From NCBI RefSeq assembly GCF_000172155.1, contig NZ_ABIZ01000001.1:4931105-4995104 (forward strand): DNA of 64,000 nt, given 5' to 3'. The notes beneath the pieces are model-generated. The model was not told the origin of the DNA. It was given only the letters and a program-made list of their open reading frames with translations, and searched no databases. The position numbers and the translations under genes were made by a program. Position 1 is the first letter of the stretch; each line of letters begins with the position of its first letter. Of the stretch, positions 10,798 to 18,765 are shown piece after piece. This stretch comes from Verrucomicrobium spinosum DSM 4136 = JCM 18804. Lineage in GTDB: Bacteria > Verrucomicrobiota > Verrucomicrobiia > Verrucomicrobiales > Verrucomicrobiaceae.

Positions 10798-11253
10798 ATG
10801 AAGAAGATACAAGGTGATCTGTTGAAACTCGCCCTGGCGGGAGAATTCGACGTCATCGTCCACGGCTGCAACTGCCATTGCACCATGGGGGCCGGCATTG
10901 CCAAATCGATCAAATCCCTCTTTCCAGAGGCTTACGAAGCCGATTGTCAAACCAAGAAAGGTGATCGTGAAAAGCTGGGAACGATATCTCAGGCCTCCGT
11001 GAACCGTGACGGCACCAAGCTCACCATCGTCAACGCCTACACCCAGTTTCATTGGCGTGGCACGGGGGTCAAGGCTGACTACAACGCGATCCGCTCGATA
11101 ATGAGGGCGATCAAAAACAGCTACCACGGTTGGCGCATCGGCTATCCCCTCATCGGAGCAGGACTCGCTGGAGGAGATTGGCCCATCATCGAGGAAATAA
11201 TCAACGAAGAGCTTGATGGAGAAGACCACACACTCGTCAAGTATCATCCTTGA
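10798..11253 (+). CDS. Macro-domain protein (ADP-ribose-binding or hydrolase)
   Basis: A 151-residue single-domain macro protein. It starts with KKIQGDLL, then VIVHGCNCHCTMGAGIA, the adenine and distal-ribose binding loops of macro domains, and later IGYPLIGAGLAGGDW, the phosphate-binding loop. Close relatives bind ADP-ribose or act on Appr-1''-p or ADP-ribosylated targets. It lies 27 bp after the enolase-family gene on the same strand and may be co-transcribed, and it is immediately followed by the 147-bp repeat array. The start is the first ATG and matches the family N-terminus. Confidence 0.87.
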   Translation: MKKIQGDLLKLALAGEFDVIVHGCNCHCTMGAGIAKSIKSLFPEAYEADCQTKKGDREKLGTISQASVNRDGTKLTIVNAYTQFHWRGTGVKADYNAIRSIMRAIKNSYHGWRIGYPLIGAGLAGGDWPIIEEIINEELDGEDHTLVKYHP

Positions 11254-11284
11254 GCGTACCCAGCAGCTCGCAAGGAGGCTCGTA

Positions 11285-12426
11285 GCTAGATTCGTCAGAG
11301 TGCTGAAGGCGCGCCATGGCATGCAGCGTCTCAAGGGCAAGTCACGTGCTTCGTGCGTTGAGCACCCTCTCCGCGTTCTCACGAACGCAGCCACGAGCAC
11401 CCTTTGGCGGGAGCACCTAGGAAATTAGAGGCTGCACTCGTCAGAGTGCGGAGGGGTGCGCCATGGCATGCAACGTCTCAAGGGCAAGCCACGTGATTCG
11501 TGCGTTGGGCACCCTCTCCGCGTTCTCACGAACGCAGCCACGAGTGCCCTGTGGCGGGAGCACAGAGGCAGCAAGTAGCTGCACTCGTCAAAGTGCGGAG
11601 GGGCGCGCCATGGCATGCAGCGTCTTGAGGGCAAGTCACGTGTTTCGTGCGTTGGGCGCCCTCTCCGCGTTCTCACGAACGCAGCCACGAGTGCCCTGTG
11701 GCGGGAGCACAGAGGCAGCAAGTGGCTGCACTCGTCAGAGTGCGGAGGGGTGAGCCATGGCATGCAGCGTCTTGAGGGCAAGTCACGTGCTTCGTGCGTT
11801 GGGCACCCTCTCCGCGTTCTCACGAACGCAGCCACGAGTCACCTTTGGCGGGAGCACCTAGGAAATTAGTGGCTGCACTCGTCAGAGTGCGGAGGGGTGC
11901 GCCATGGCATGCAGCGTCTCAAGGGCAAGTCACGTGTTTCGTGCGTTGGGCACTCTCTCCGCGTTCTCACGAACGCAGCCACGAGTCACCTTTGGCGGGA
12001 GCACCTAGGAAATTAGTGGCTGCACTCGTCAGAGTGCGGAGGGGTGCGCCATGGCATGCAGCGTCTCAAGGGCAAGTCACGTGTTTCGTGCGTTGGGCAC
12101 CCTCTCCGCGTTCTCACGAACGCAGCCACGAGTCACCTTTGGCGGGAGCACCTAGGAAATTAGTGGCTGCACTCGTCAGAGTGCGGAGGGGTGAGCCATG
12201 GCATGCAACGTCTCAAGGGCAAGCCACGTGATTCGTGCGTTGGGCACCCTCTCCTCGTTCTCACGAACGCAGCCACGAGTCACCTTTGGCGGGAGCACCT
12301 AGGAAATTAGTGGCTGCACTCGTCAGAGTGCGGAGGGGTGCGCCATGGCATGCAGCGTCTTGAGGGCAAGTAACGTGATTCGTGCGTTGGACACCCTCTC
12401 CGCGTTCTCACGAACGCAGCCACGAG
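11285..12426. repeat. Array of eight 147-bp tandem repeats with paired REP-like hairpins
   Basis: Copies begin at 11285, 11432, 11579, 11726, 11873, 12020, 12167 and 12314; the period is exactly 147 bp each time, the first copy is degenerate and the last is cut short. Every unit contains hairpin GCACTCGTCAGAGTGC near its left end and GCGTTCTCACGAACGC near its right end. Read on opposite strands these are two versions of one element (both preceded by GTGGCT and followed by GGAG and then GGGTGC), so each unit is an inverted pair, like a BIME. The array fills the convergent gap between the macro-domain gene and the kinase-like gene. The frames inside do not stay open through the array, so it is taken as non-coding. 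Confidence 0.93.
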
Positions 12427-12459
12427 ATTCCCATCGCTCAACCAGCGCAGCGCCTCAAC

Positions 12460-15045
12460 TCACTTGATCTTCCCCAGTCTCTCCTTGCTCCAGGAAAGTC
12501 CAGCCTCGATCGTTTCATCCGTGCCGTGTCGGGTCTGGACGGCCGACCATTGCTCAGACGCCTTGGTGAAATACACCTTGGCCAGCTTGGAGTCTTTGGC
12601 CACTTCACCGCTGTGCCCCAGGATGCCATACAGCTGAGCCAGCAACACGCCACAGCTCTTGCGATCCATTTCATCCAGATGAGCCCCCCCTTCCTTGAGC
12701 AGGCCAGAGAGCCGGTCAATCGCCTGATTGGCCACTGGAATGGCATCCTTGGGTTTGCCCAGATCACACATCAACTGGGCACTCATGCCCTGCTGGCGGG
12801 CCAGCTCGGTGAGGAAGCGCGTGTTGTCGGGATTGTCCTTGCTGAGGTCTTCCATGGTCTTCACCGCCATGTCCTGTTTGCGGCGAGCTTCAGCAGCATT
12901 GCCCATGTCACGCTCCAGCGCAGCAAGGTCCCCATAGTTGCGAGCCAGAAGAAAGCGGGCGTCCGCCCACTGCGGGTGCACGCGGACCAGCTCTATCAAG
13001 ATCGCCTGAGCCTCTGACTGGGCATCCTTGGCATCCGTGTTACCGAGCTTCCCAGCGACTATTTCCCCGAACTCGATGTACGATTCCGCCAGCGTCAGCG
13101 CCTGCTCCTGGTTGTTGGGCTTGGAGCGCTCCACCAGCTTCACCATCACCTCCATGGAGTCGAAGAGGGAACGCATTGCATCATCGAGCCTGCCCTCATC
13201 CCGCAGAGAGAGCGCCCGCTCGATCTGGCTGCGTGAAAGCAGAAACTGCTCATCTGCCGAGAGTTCCTCGCCTACGAGCTTGGGATTCAGCACGGTCGGC
13301 ACTTTTCCCAATGCATGCTCCGCCACCGCCCCCTCGCCATCGCGGCGGGCCCGCTTGCCCAGTTCATACCAGGCCGAGGCGCACTCGAAACGCGTGTTGC
13401 GATCCTTCGGATTCGCCTCCACTGCGGGCGTCAGAAAAGTCACCGCCTGCTGGTAGAGCACGAGGGCATCACTGCGGTGCCCCGCCTCCGCCTTGAGCAA
13501 GCCGAGCCACCGGCAGGTGCGCCCCAGCATCGTCTCCAGCCGCGCCTTGTCTTTGTGATCCGGCTCGTTTTTCAGCAGGGTCGCCAGAGCCATCTGCGCC
13601 TCCTCCATCCAGTTCGCCGCCTCTGGTCGTTGATTCTTGCGAAGAAGCAACTGCGCCGTGTTGAAGTAGTTGCGAGCCCGCTCAGGCAACCGCTCGGGAT
13701 CCTCCTTGATGCGATCGCGCTCCCGTTCGTAGAAAGACAGCGCATCATTGACCTGCTTGGCGGAGATCTCAGCCTGCAGGCCCAGACCTGTCGGCGTCTG
13801 CAGGAGCAGCGTGAGGAACTGATCCACCGCAGAATGAGACATCTCTAGAGAGGCCTCGGACTTGATTCTGGCCGCCTTGGCAGCCGCCACCTCACGGGCC
13901 AGATTGCCCACCTGGGACTGAAGATCCGTCACGGTCACCTCAAACAGGGCATCCTTCTGGACGTTGGCAGTTTCCGCCTTCTTCGCCCGACGCGTCGTAG
14001 CAAATCCATAAATGGTGCCATAGACCGCAGCGACCAGGAATGCAGCGGCGAGAATGATGGACGTGGACCGGAGCAGCACCAACCGCCGGATCTGGCGACG
14101 ACGCTCCACATCGATCTTGCCCCGGGCATCTTCCAGCAGGTAGTCCGCCTCCAGTCGCTCGAACTCTCGCATGACTTCCCGTAGATCAGGCCAGCGATGT
14201 CGTGGATCCAGCGCCAGGCAGCGCTCGACGACCTGCCGTCGGCGCTCATCCCACTTCGTGCGGGTCTTCGTGGGCCAGCCAATCTCGGGCTGCCGACGCA
14301 CGGCCGCCATGATAGCCGGATTGTCAAAAGTGGCTGACACACCCCCGCGGTCACCCGTGTGACGCTTGCGCTGGCGTTCGTACTCTTCCTCCGCACGAGG
14401 GAATCGCCCTGTGAGCAGCCGATAGGCGACTACGCCGAAAGCATAGACGTCCCAAGCCGTCCCCTGAGTGGCCAGGGCATCAGGATGCTCCGCCTGCTCC
14501 GGCGGCACATACATAAAGTGGTCTGTCGCTTCAAAATGATGCACGCCCCCTATCCAGCCCTGCACGACGTCAGTGATCTTTGTGGCGCTGGCGGGGTCAT
14601 CCTCCAACAGCACATTCCGGGGCTTCAGATTGCAATGCACCAGGTTGTGCTTGTGCAGCCATGCCATGGCGTCGCACACCTCATAGATGTAACGCCAGGC
14701 TTCTTCCGGCCCCACATTGCCACAGCAGCTTTCCAGCGTGGGCGTCTCCCATGTACGGCGGCCCTTGCCATCCTCGGTGGTAAAACCCACCAGCGGCGTG
14801 GCCACGAAGTAGGGGCTGCTGTCAAAATCGAACGCTGTGACCGGGAGCAATCCCGGATGCTCCGGCATCTGCTGGAGGCCCCGCATGGCAATGCCCAGCA
14901 GCTTGCGATTGATCGCCATGCTGCTGAAGACTTTGACCGCGGCGGTAGTCCGGTTGTCCGCCGTGACTGCCCGGTAAACCGCTCCGCAACTCCCCTTTCC
15001 AATCAAATCCTGCAACTCAAGACCTGCAATCTGCGGCAAACTCAT
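12460..15045 (-). CDS. Membrane-anchored Ser/Thr kinase-like protein with TPR-like C-terminus, probable pseudokinase
   Basis: 861 residues from the ATG at 15045. Residues 10-300 form a bacterial Hanks-type kinase fold: glycine loop GKGSCGAVY (16-24), ATP-site lysine K38, TDV (D159) in place of DFG, and VPPEQ (180-184) in place of APE. The catalytic loop reads HCNLKPRN (137-144) instead of HRDLKPxN, so the catalytic Asp is Asn (AAT codon). One transmembrane helix lies at about 322-349, and residues 360-861 are helical repeats resembling TPRs, probably outside the membrane. The usual architecture in PVC bacteria is the same but with an active kinase. It lies downstream of glgB on the same strand with a 145-bp gap. 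An in-frame start at 15102 is less likely because the fold begins right after 15045. Confidence 0.85.
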   Translation of the reverse strand: MSLPQIAGLELQDLIGKGSCGAVYRAVTADNRTTAAVKVFSSMAINRKLLGIAMRGLQQMPEHPGLLPVTAFDFDSSPYFVATPLVGFTTEDGKGRRTWETPTLESCCGNVGPEEAWRYIYEVCDAMAWLHKHNLVHCNLKPRNVLLEDDPASATKITDVVQGWIGGVHHFEATDHFMYVPPEQAEHPDALATQGTAWDVYAFGVVAYRLLTGRFPRAEEEYERQRKRHTGDRGGVSATFDNPAIMAAVRRQPEIGWPTKTRTKWDERRRQVVERCLALDPRHRWPDLREVMREFERLEADYLLEDARGKIDVERRRQIRRLVLLRSTSIILAAAFLVAAVYGTIYGFATTRRAKKAETANVQKDALFEVTVTDLQSQVGNLAREVAAAKAARIKSEASLEMSHSAVDQFLTLLLQTPTGLGLQAEISAKQVNDALSFYERERDRIKEDPERLPERARNYFNTAQLLLRKNQRPEAANWMEEAQMALATLLKNEPDHKDKARLETMLGRTCRWLGLLKAEAGHRSDALVLYQQAVTFLTPAVEANPKDRNTRFECASAWYELGKRARRDGEGAVAEHALGKVPTVLNPKLVGEELSADEQFLLSRSQIERALSLRDEGRLDDAMRSLFDSMEVMVKLVERSKPNNQEQALTLAESYIEFGEIVAGKLGNTDAKDAQSEAQAILIELVRVHPQWADARFLLARNYGDLAALERDMGNAAEARRKQDMAVKTMEDLSKDNPDNTRFLTELARQQGMSAQLMCDLGKPKDAIPVANQAIDRLSGLLKEGGAHLDEMDRKSCGVLLAQLYGILGHSGEVAKDSKLAKVYFTKASEQWSAVQTRHGTDETIEAGLSWSKERLGKIK

Positions 15046-15190
15046 GGCAGCTTTCCTTTGATAATTTTCTCTGAGGATGGGGCAATCACTCCTCAATAGC
15101 AAGAATGTACCTCATTTCCGGGACACCGCCAGCCCCCTCCAGAGCAAGGAGGAGCCAAGGCGAGTGCCCCGGTACGGTAAACGTCTGCGA

Positions 15191-17380
15191 CTAGGCCCTT
15201 TGCAACACCACCGTGGCCAAAGGCGGGACCGTGACCTCCACCGACCATGGCTGGCCCTGCCACGGGGTGGGCTGCGCCTGCATTCCGCCGGCATTCCCCA
15301 CCCCAGAGCCACCATAGCTGACGGCATCCGAGTTGAGCAACTCCTTGTAGAAGCCAGCTTCCTCCACCCCCATCCGGTAGCCCGGACGCGGCACCGGGGT
15401 GGCGTTCACGAGCACATAGCAAGTACGCCCCTCCGGGTCCTTGCGGCCAAAGGCGAAGAGGCTGTTCTCATAGTCGTTGGGCTCCAACCACCAGAAGCCT
15501 CCGGCCTCATGATCGCGGCTGTGCAACGCCTTCTCACGGGTGTACAGGTGGTTCAGATCCCGCACCATAGACTGTAGCCCGCGGTGTTCCTCACCATAGA
15601 GCACCTCCCAGTCCAGAGACTGCTGGTAGTTCCACTCCCTCCATTGGCCGATCTCGCAGCCCATGAACAGGAGCTTCTTCCCGGGGTGCATCCACATCCA
15701 GGCATAGAACATCCGCAGGTTGGCAAACTTCTGCCAGCGATCCCCCGGCATCTTGTCCAGGAGGGACTTCTTGCCATGCACCACTTCATCGTGGCTGAGC
15801 ACGAGGATGAAATTCTCATCATAGGCATAGAGCATGGAGAAGGTGGCCTCCCCATGGTGGTGCTTGCGGTGCACCGGCTCCTTTTCCATGTAGCGCAGGG
15901 TGTCGTTCATCCACCCCATGTTCCATTTAAAGCCAAAACCCAGACCACCCGTGCTCACCGGCCGGGACACCCCGCTCCAGGCCGTGCTCTCCTCAGCGAT
16001 CATGGCGATGCCCGGGAAGCGGGAGTAGCACTGATAGTTCAGCTCCCGCATGAACTCGATGGCTTCCAAGTTCTCGCGTCCGCCGTAGCGGTTGGGCACC
16101 CACTGGCCCGCCTCGCGGGAGTAGTCCAGGTAGATCATGGAGGCCACCGCATCCACGCGGATGCCGTCAATGTGGTACATCTCCAGCCAGAAGAGGGCAT
16201 TGGCGATGAGGAAATTCCTCACCTCATTGCGACCAAAATTGAAGATCAGAGTGCCCCAGTCCATGTGCTCGCCCTGGCGGGGGTCGGCATGCTCATAGAG
16301 CGCCGTACCGTCGAAGCGCGCCAGACCGTGGGCATCCTTGGGGAAGTGCGCCGGCACCCAGTCCACGATCACCCCCAGGCCAGCCTGGTGACAGCGATCC
16401 ACAAACTCCCGGAACTCATCCGGATTCCCATGGCGACTCGTCGGCGCGAAGTACCCTCCCACCTGATAGCCCCAAGATCCGTCAAAGGGGAACTCGCTCA
16501 CTGGCATGAGCTCGATGTGCGTGAATCCCAGATCCTTCACATACGGGATCAGCTCATCGGCCAGTTCGCGATACGTGAGCATCCGCCCCCCTTCCCGCCT
16601 GCGCCAGGAGCCGAGGTGCACCTCGTAGATGCTCATGGCCGTGCGGTAGAGGCTGCGGTCCTTGCGCTGGCTCATCCAGGCGTCATCGCTCCACCGATAG
16701 TGGTGGAAGTCCCACGTGAGCGAGGCGGTCTGCGGCCCATGCTGGGAGAAGAAGGCAAAGGGATCACTCTTGATGAAGAGGGCCCCATTCTCCCCAATGA
16801 GCTCAAACTTGTAGTGCACCAGACTGGCCAGCCCGGGGATGAACAGCTCCCAGATGCCAGACTCCACCCGGCAGCGCATGGGGTTCACCCGACCATCCCA
16901 GCCGTTGAAATCCCCCACCACGCTGACCCGCTTCGCATTCGGGGCCCACACGGCAAAGAGAACCCCTTCGATCCCGTTGAACGTCCTGCGATGCGCCCCC
17001 AGCACCTCATACAGATGCCAGTGCTTGCCCTCGCGGAAATAGTGCATGTCCTGCTCCCCCAGGCAGAGGCCAAAGGAATAGGGATCCGACTGGCGGTGCA
17101 CCTTCCCATCCTGGGTATGCCAGACCAGTTCATACGGCTGCCCCCAGCATTTCGAAGGCAGGGCCACCTCGAACAGTCCATTGGGATGCAGCAGATCTCC
17201 AACAAAAGTCTCTCCGGTGGCATTGAGCACCACGCTCAGAGTATGGGCCTGGGGTTGGAGGGAGCGGACCGTGACTTTTCCATCAGCGGAGACGTGGGGT
17301 CCCAAATAGCTGAAGGGATCGGTGTGAGTGGCGTCTAGAATTTTCCGGGCTTGCTCGTCGAGTGGGTACGTCAGGGCCAT
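15191..17380 (-). CDS. glgB: 1,4-alpha-glucan branching enzyme
   Basis: 729 residues, the normal length for bacterial GlgB, which cuts alpha-1,4 chains and re-attaches them as alpha-1,6 branches during glycogen synthesis. An N-terminal glucan-binding segment (DPFSYLGPHV) and a CBM48 domain (VWAPNAKRVSVVGDFNGW) precede the GH13 barrel. Catalytic positions can be placed: D410 in DGIRVDAVASM, E463/E464 in MIAEEST, and D531 in LSHDEVVHGK. It follows the GT4 gene by only 10 bp on the same strand, so both are likely one operon. Confidence 0.96.
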   Translation of the reverse strand: MALTYPLDEQARKILDATHTDPFSYLGPHVSADGKVTVRSLQPQAHTLSVVLNATGETFVGDLLHPNGLFEVALPSKCWGQPYELVWHTQDGKVHRQSDPYSFGLCLGEQDMHYFREGKHWHLYEVLGAHRRTFNGIEGVLFAVWAPNAKRVSVVGDFNGWDGRVNPMRCRVESGIWELFIPGLASLVHYKFELIGENGALFIKSDPFAFFSQHGPQTASLTWDFHHYRWSDDAWMSQRKDRSLYRTAMSIYEVHLGSWRRREGGRMLTYRELADELIPYVKDLGFTHIELMPVSEFPFDGSWGYQVGGYFAPTSRHGNPDEFREFVDRCHQAGLGVIVDWVPAHFPKDAHGLARFDGTALYEHADPRQGEHMDWGTLIFNFGRNEVRNFLIANALFWLEMYHIDGIRVDAVASMIYLDYSREAGQWVPNRYGGRENLEAIEFMRELNYQCYSRFPGIAMIAEESTAWSGVSRPVSTGGLGFGFKWNMGWMNDTLRYMEKEPVHRKHHHGEATFSMLYAYDENFILVLSHDEVVHGKKSLLDKMPGDRWQKFANLRMFYAWMWMHPGKKLLFMGCEIGQWREWNYQQSLDWEVLYGEEHRGLQSMVRDLNHLYTREKALHSRDHEAGGFWWLEPNDYENSLFAFGRKDPEGRTCYVLVNATPVPRPGYRMGVEEAGFYKELLNSDAVSYGGSGVGNAGGMQAQPTPWQGQPWSVEVTVPPLATVVLQRA

Positions 17381-18650: not shown

Positions 18651-18674
18651 GTGGCTGCGTTTGTAAAAACGCGG
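18651..18674 (+). repeat. Solitary REP-like hairpin related to the 147-bp array
   Basis: GTGGCT followed by GCGTTTGTAAAAACGC (18657-18672) and GG. It has the same flanks and the same 6-bp stem with 4-base loop as the two hairpins of the 147-bp array, but with a third set of complementary stem bases (GTTT/AAAC instead of ACTC/GAGT or GTTC/GAAC). It stands alone in the 247-bp gap between the GT4 gene and leuS. Confidence 0.7.
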
Positions 18675-18765
18675 TCAGGGACGCCGAGAGGCAACGGACC
18701 CAAACCACGCCCAATACTCCCACCGCACCCCTCAGAGACAGGTGCGGCGGATTTCACTCCCTGCC

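Follow-up and report, generated by a model that had tools for sequence, protein, structure and literature searches.

Tandem REPIN arrays of a genome-wide REP family in Verrucomicrobium spinosum and a candidate cognate RAYT

The array and its surroundings

The genome of Verrucomicrobium spinosum DSM 4136 is a single contig of 8,220,857 bp. The window—the whole stretch of 64,000 nucleotides analyzed here, at genome positions 4,931,105 to 4,995,104—has a GC content of 60%. Between two convergent genes, as the initial annotation had it, here those of a Macro-domain protein and of a protein kinase with a TPR region, lies a tandem array at 11282–12423 (window positions are used throughout unless stated otherwise). 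It consists of eight inverted pairs of REPs (REPINs) of 113 to 114 bp each, which are separated by seven linkers of 33 bp and repeat with a period of 147 bp. Both neighboring genes are supported by Pfam, and the array between them is extragenic.

10798–11253, + strand: Macro-domain gene, Pfam-supported; its stop lies 28 bp ahead of the array
11282–11394, no strand assigned: REPIN 1; left REP (11282–11307) degenerate and mosaic-looking
11395–11427, no strand assigned: first 33-bp linker; the others start at 11542, 11689, 11836, 11983, 12130, and 12277
11428–11541, no strand assigned: REPIN 2; + REP at 11428–11453, − REP at 11516–11541
11575–11688, no strand assigned: REPIN 3; + REP at 11575–11600 with one C-A mismatch, − REP at 11663–11688
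11722–11835, no strand assigned: REPIN 4
11869–11982, no strand assigned: REPIN 5
12016–12129, no strand assigned: REPIN 6; long hairpin on either strand by DNA folding (about −33 kcal/mol, z about −5)
12163–12276, no strand assigned: REPIN 7; − REP at 12251–12276 with one G-A mismatch
12310–12423, no strand assigned: REPIN 8, the final copy
12460–15102, − strand: protein kinase gene with TPR region, Pfam-supported, oriented toward the array in a convergent sense, with its stop 36 bp past the last REP
18651–18676, + strand: solitary REP of the same family, with a GCGTTT/AAACGC stem and a GTAA loop

The constant period of 147 bp given in the initial annotation is borne out: all 13 start-to-start intervals between same-strand REPs measure 147 bp (15 REPs were detected in the array), and TRF reports a single array for the entire window, at 11292–12426, with a period of 147, 7.7 copies, 93% matches, and 0% indels. 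At the border of unit 1, a shift by 1 bp is compensated, and the periodicity stops 3 bp past the GTGG end of REPIN 8. The start of the array, previously set to 11285, has to be moved to 11282 to include the first, degenerate REP. Each unit had been described as two hairpins in inverted orientation with common flanks, and a search with GTGGCTGCNNTCGTNAGANNGCGGAG at up to three mismatches retrieves them, with 15 matches in the window and none after 100 dinucleotide shuffles of its full sequence. The linkers come in nested blocks of variants—linkers 2–3 versus linkers 4–7.

A dispersed family of REPs and tandem arrays

A 25-base key with up to three mismatches matches 161 places in the genome (62 + 99; reversed control 0). 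A degenerate 24-mer with at most one mismatch matches 262, again with an empty reversed control, and as this count is a lower bound, the genome search for the hairpin and its flanks that had been proposed together with the REP reading returned at least 262 copies. High copy number and dispersed occurrence are as described for REPs. A covariance-model search, which covered at most 150 candidates, added arrays beyond those listed by BLAST.

The more detailed counts stem from a working set of 46 stretches comprising 501,345 bp including the window, a non-random sample chosen for matches to the REP or to transposases. Within it, 339 REPs pass a fixed rule, including a few look-alikes such as the single matches at 15238, 19094, and 46914, and 291 of the 339 are located inside TRF arrays—a proportion that applies to stretches picked for matches. 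A separate scan also yields 339 matches, which form a different set (29 in the shuffled control) and of which 295 passed a family filter.

Altogether, 29 tandem arrays could be delimited. Their periods range from 129 to 176 bp (median 144), their REPINs from 102 to 114 bp (median 107), and their linkers from 21 to 48 bp (median 34), and the longest of them counts 19.8 units. They are built as BIME-2 or REPIN arrays are—inverted REP pairs with the GTRG ends pointing outward, which are tandemly reiterated. A relaxed REP scan, too noisy for counting, served only to locate the array edges. A REPIN edge coincides with the start of the periodicity in 19 of 28 arrays and with its end in 18 of 28, with about seven expected for each, and the array limits lie off the REPIN edges at nine starts and ten ends.

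The linker and inner sequences are mostly specific for their array. Inner spacers recur between some arrays that lie far apart (z ≥6 in 12 of 506 array-pair orientations), and in four array pairs the linker cores are alike (z 4.3–5.6, the top of the 506 orientations), two of these pairs involving the array with the RAYT gene described below. Hence, the unit of spread may in some arrays have been a larger piece and not a single REPIN.

REP build and stem covariation

Read from its GTRG end, a REP of the window array comprises GTRG, a C-T-G-C-N-N-N-N stem, a GTNA loop, and the complementary arm. The stem quoted in the initial annotation proved too short: counted from GTGG it spans 8 bp, the second pair being a T-G wobble, and it is closed by the tetraloop GTGA or GTCA. 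Folding of the two REP types of the window yields this 8-bp stem for the sense strand and one of 6 bp for the antisense strand. That both stems stay perfect is correct for 13 of the 16 window hairpins and incorrect for those at 11282–11307, 11575–11600 (C-A), and 12251–12276 (G-A).

Among the 339 REPs of the working set, 267 carry the tetranucleotide GTGG and 51 GTAG, under a rule that demanded three of the four bases. The second stem pair is the T-G wobble in 324 REPs and C-G in six; the outermost pair is C-G in 292 and A-T in 36, with merely two C-T and two A-G combinations. In a set of 60 distinct REPs, two-sided changes occur at six of the eight stem pairs and 99.2% of the cells are paired, and none of 500 shuffles equals the observed paired percentage or covariation score. 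These 60 were hand-picked from 93 distinct REPs, whose catalogue demanded five of six pairs as well as the family loop and thus leans toward pairing. Because of this partial selection, the test was repeated with the flanks and the loop alone as key. This key finds 304 matches (eight in total in the reversed-sequence control), of which 233 bear six of six Watson–Crick pairs and 57 five of six; per cell, after three matches with fewer than three pairs had been dropped, 1719 of 1806 are Watson–Crick, 61 wobble, and 26 neither. The loop, for its part, was included in the search rule of most REP scans. With a key of flanks and perfect core stem that sets no condition on the loop, it is GNNA in 240 of 243 matches (reversed control 0), most often GTGA (115), GTAA (81), or GTCA (35). 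The elements are GTRG-tagged palindromes whose stem variants stay complementary, as for REPs in general. The compensatory changes noticed in the window are a property of the family, and a check across the arrays did not reveal the uncompensated stem divergence that the initial annotation had named as speaking against its reading; nor did its other counter-case arise, a lack of further copies in the genome.

A RAYT gene inside an array

The search for a RAYT gene, likewise proposed at the outset, led to a gene of this class that encodes 201 aa (genome positions 4,876,698–4,877,300) and is embedded in a REPIN array of the same family, with 17 REPs within 1.5 kb—11 upstream and six downstream. 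The protein scores 29 bits against PF01797 (cut-off 23), and its sole NCBIfam match is REP_Tyr_transpos (NF047646) with 60.3 bits, which is below the curated naming cut-off of 80. Nine aligned homologues all match NF047646 at E ≤0.001 and all carry the PDHxH (HUH) motif and the tyrosine, as is typical of Y1-type sequences. A profile of these nine matches the solved TnpA-REP structure 4er8 with E 2e-9; phmmer with the single RAYT sequence finds nothing in the PDB at E ≤0.001. We know of no biochemistry on the 201-aa protein.

The genome contains 39 matches to PF01797, some of which are two halves of one gene. Thirty PF01797 loci were scanned together with 1.5 kb of flank on either side: two or more family REPs occur only at the 201-aa RAYT, 28 loci have none, and at L064 one look-alike lies 1.3 kb away. 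No family REP was found near the homologues L163 and L164 of the same genome. Five other RAYT-like genes of V. spinosum score 57 to 82 bits against NF047646, none with a family REP within 1.5 kb. Hence, other candidate enzymes exist. Judged by its sequence and surroundings, the 201-aa RAYT, a "domesticated" transposase, is most likely the cognate enzyme that would spread these REPs.

RAYT homologues in other genomes

The homologues of genomes G023 and G009 are bordered on both sides, and that of G042 downstream, by REPs that have the same build but different stems. Among the nine aligned homologues, no convincing REP of this build was seen near those of G006 and G012, one of the two of G053, and L163 of V. 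spinosum. A scan of a genome collection kept 80 relatives; Verrucomicrobiota account for most of them, and Planctomycetota, Lentisphaerae, and others for some. Their flanks were assessed for the first 55, of which 51 had enough flank, with no loop being demanded: GTRG-hairpins occur within 350 bp at 27 of the 51 loci and are missing at 24. Flanking on both sides, as for the RAYTs of V. spinosum, G023, and G009, is found at 18 of these 51. The mean is 2.45 hairpins per locus versus 0.10 in shuffles, and further upstream it is 0.16 per 700 bp (45 loci, five with any). The commonest loops of the 125 flanking hairpins are GTGA (29), GCCA (19), and GCAA (12), and at least 69 are GNNA. These tallies suggest that the stem sequence differs from lineage to lineage, with loop and stem length tending to vary little.

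Arrays in related genomes and their probable growth

The degenerate 24-mer matches 119 times in the congener G001, 11 times in G003, and not at all in a third; overall, it is positive in 12 of 57 genomes searched, V. spinosum included (control 0). At the window locus, G001 bears two REPINs and a 33-bp linker that by eye is similar to the one of V. spinosum. The inner spacers of the two REPINs are 65 and 52 bp long and 58% identical, compared with a mean of 54% and a maximum of 74% between loci. All eight window REPINs of V. spinosum share one of these two spacer types, and its first REP looks like a mosaic of the two, as far as the sequence indicates. In G003, both the Macro gene and the array are absent, with 143 bp instead. 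Among the congeners, the window locus is hence seen at three stages—without an array, with two REPINs, and with eight—by which the growth of REP arrays, an open question, becomes directly testable.

Counted by one rule, the REP number differs between V. spinosum and G001 at nine of nine flank-matched array loci, namely 15/4 at the window and 8/6, 9/6, 2/6, 9/8, 8/4, 10/4, 7/4, and 0/4 at the others, for G001 loci that were picked for having arrays in G001 (the stretches L194 and L195 matched no flank among the V. spinosum loci compared). At other two-REPIN loci of G001 the inner spacers are more alike (66, 80, 83, and 92%), and so the window locus is the only one at which two different REPINs clearly acted as founders. 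Together, the two-REPIN locus and the differences in REP number suggest neighboring REPIN insertions followed by local amplification.

At the orthologous site of G003, the RAYT gene and its array are absent as well, with 101 bp instead. The assembly of G001, despite its 119 REPs, yielded no close homologue of the RAYT; the orthologous site falls between two of its contig ends. Likewise, none was found in the roughly 220 contigs of G007—of another genus of the same family—which holds 111 related REPs of the GTAGCCGCGTTCGTAAGAACGCGG type; its six distant RAYT-like genes have no family REP within 1.5 kb. At L127 (genome positions 1,979,965–1,982,137), V. spinosum carries 2.2 kb with a RAYT-like gene and no family REP where G001 (L198) has two REPINs.

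Probable dispersal and amplification, and alternatives

We consider it probable that the window holds a BIME-2-like tandem REPIN array, one of a genome-wide REP family that was dispersed by a RAYT and then amplified locally. The copies, the array geometry, the stem covariation, the array-embedded RAYT, the REP flanks of homologous RAYTs, and the copy-number differences between species are observed; that the RAYT is active, that segments were amplified, and why the arrays lie mostly between convergent genes is what we infer. The BIME and RAYT reading of the initial annotation gains support from the hundreds of copies, the compensated stems, the tandem inverted pairs, and the embedded RAYT, with mobilization as a presumed step. 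The cognate RAYT, an HUH/Y1 single-strand transposase, would recognize the GTRG-hairpin on single-stranded DNA and would scatter REPINs into intergenic sites, mostly 3′-to-3′ gene junctions. Two REPINs coming to lie within about 20 to 50 bp might then prompt tandem amplification of a linker-plus-REPIN segment—through slippage or recombination involving the REPs on either side, or through rolling-circle copying primed by the RAYT—whereby the linker would be carried along and set the period. The paired stems may be kept by selection for RAYT recognition or by exchange between REPs.

The placement of the arrays invites a different emphasis. According to a rough ORF caller, 21 of the 29 arrays lie between convergent genes, seven between tandem genes, and one between divergent genes. 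Gaps without an array in the same stretches are convergent in 40 of 180 cases if longer than 50 bp (Fisher 2e-7) and in 30 of 114 if longer than 150 bp (Fisher 7.5e-6). In a few cases, over 1 kb separates an array from the closest gene called, and the two halves around the RAYT gene, which are not independent of each other, count as two of the 29. The caller leaves out ORFs inside arrays, which makes it a weak genome-wide test of extragenic location. The repeats might thus be kept at convergent gene ends for the host—as sites for proteins such as DNA gyrase, or as 3′ elements that depend on Rho or stabilize mRNA—with their mobility being secondary. Besides the placement, the reported gyrase binding of BIME-2 and the aid of REPs to Rho-dependent termination, as given in PMC2817692, speak for such a role, which the position of the arrays is compatible with, be it at transcript 3′ ends or in DNA binding. 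However, the same bias is expected if promoter-near insertions are merely removed, and the convergent placement fits either cause. As linker and inner sequences are mostly array-specific, mainly the REP itself would be a candidate site, and at the window locus G003 does without both the Macro gene and the array. All in all, host function as the primary explanation appears unlikely, albeit the strongest of the alternatives.

Dispersal by the RAYT could also be dispensed with. An old REP pair might have been amplified by replication slippage and unequal recombination, with the RAYT being a chance passenger in one array; the nested blocks of linker variants (2–3 versus 4–7) suggest stepwise local growth of this kind, and G001 and G007 hold many REPs with no close RAYT detected. 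Yet the occurrence of REPs at many loci and the inner spacers common to distant arrays (12 of 506, z ≥6) call for a dispersing step, homologous RAYTs elsewhere are flanked by cognate-looking REPs, and the site without RAYT and array in G003 goes along with few REPs (11), which leaves a RAYT-independent origin rather improbable.

As for transcription termination, which the initial annotation had also offered as a role, stable hairpins do lie between the two stop codons. However, a scan of 11200–12500 for intrinsic terminators gives no terminator-like site (shuffle mean 1.0), with no GC hairpin followed by a T-run, and across the 295-member catalogue the core hairpin is mostly followed by GGTC, GGAG, or GGAA as the next four bases, not by T-runs; intrinsic terminators for both converging genes were therefore rejected as very improbable. 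A structured noncoding RNA repeat or a repeated peptide-coding gene was rejected as well and is the least probable of all, since—even though open frames cross the array and most loops fit the GNRA loop of RNA—the best Rfam match has an E of 0.71 with none near threshold, GTCA loops (61 of 339) are not GNRA, and the open frames, which are found in several frames of either strand, merely follow the 147-bp (3 × 49) period.

Dispersal by a RAYT and subsequent local amplification, the reading we favor, may be taken one step further. Speculatively, and with considerable doubt, there might be a RAYT clade across Verrucomicrobiota and Planctomycetota with one largely fixed REP grammar—GTRG, an 8-bp stem, a GNNA-type tetraloop, and a stem sequence that is free but paired—of which the REPINs of V. 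spinosum would have been selectively amplified into long arrays where convergent genes end, serving there as a buffer of topology or of transcript ends and not just as passengers.

Relation to known systems

Elements of this kind are known as BIMEs or REPINs; as far as literature was found, the V. spinosum family is a new member. No account of a REP family in V. spinosum emerged from the PMC literature, and a prior description is possible in subscription papers, most of which lie outside this coverage. The comparisons that follow refer to the pertinent parts of the cited papers.

A close likeness in architecture is with BIME-2 or modular BIMEs and their flanking rayt genes, as in E. coli (yafM) and Stenotrophomonas (Smal4) (PMC2817692): tandem modules of alternating inverted REPs, inter-REP segments that are unrelated between arrays, complementary stem changes, and a rayt beside or flanked by arrays. 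V. spinosum differs by its REP sequence and host phylum, by a RAYT of 201 aa that stays below the NCBIfam cut-off, and by its 29 delimited arrays of up to 19.8 units. The REPINs of Pseudomonas fluorescens SBW25 (PMC3116915) are similar in having an inverted REP doublet as unit, tandem clusters that include flanking sequence, a cluster beside each RAYT, and clusters of two unrelated REPINs. In SBW25, however, REPINs are mostly single and the 16 ordered clusters comprise at most four REPINs, whereas 291 of 339 REPs of V. spinosum—at loci chosen for matches—lie in arrays.

The GTAG REP super-family (PMC3733652), with GTAG-20 of Opitutus terrae, shares the GTRG tail, the short stem, the complementary stem subtypes, and a host from the Verrucomicrobiota. 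GTAG-20 bears GTGG in most copies, and tandemly reiterated dimer clusters have been described for the super-family. This likeness is one of build, and V. spinosum is not among the species named in the relevant parts of that study. With TnpA-REP and the REPtron (PMC8266576, PMC6006769), the family has in common a tetranucleotide and hairpin, which those enzymes read strand-specifically on single-stranded DNA. In two of the systems covered there, certain loop positions are intolerant of change, and in one the tetranucleotide helps to choose the cleavage site; E. coli REPs bear a bulge as compared to the T-G wobble in the stem of V. spinosum. With loop and wobble nearly fixed and the stem sequence free, the rule by which the RAYT would read its hairpin becomes testable—in a well-defined REP–RAYT pair outside Proteobacteria with many arrays in one genome.

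Further RAYT-like and transposase-like genes

A multicopy family of transposase-like proteins of about 355 to 390 aa (L067, L070, L076, L077, L086, and L087 among them) shows a split Y1_Tnp match, covering positions 5–61 and 63–119, and has no REP of the window family within 1.5 kb. RAYT-like genes without a family REP within 1.5 kb lie at L128:3289–4008 (− strand, 81.9 bits to NF047646) and L129:2659–3489 (+ strand, 77.1 bits). At L130:2440–3822 (− strand; genome positions about 6,165,439–6,166,821), a RAYT-like domain is found in frame with a NUDIX domain (PF00293 + PF01797; NF047646 63.9 bits). Beside this frame, TGFQPV- and TGCKPALP-like peptides occur, apparently the translation of another repeat family.
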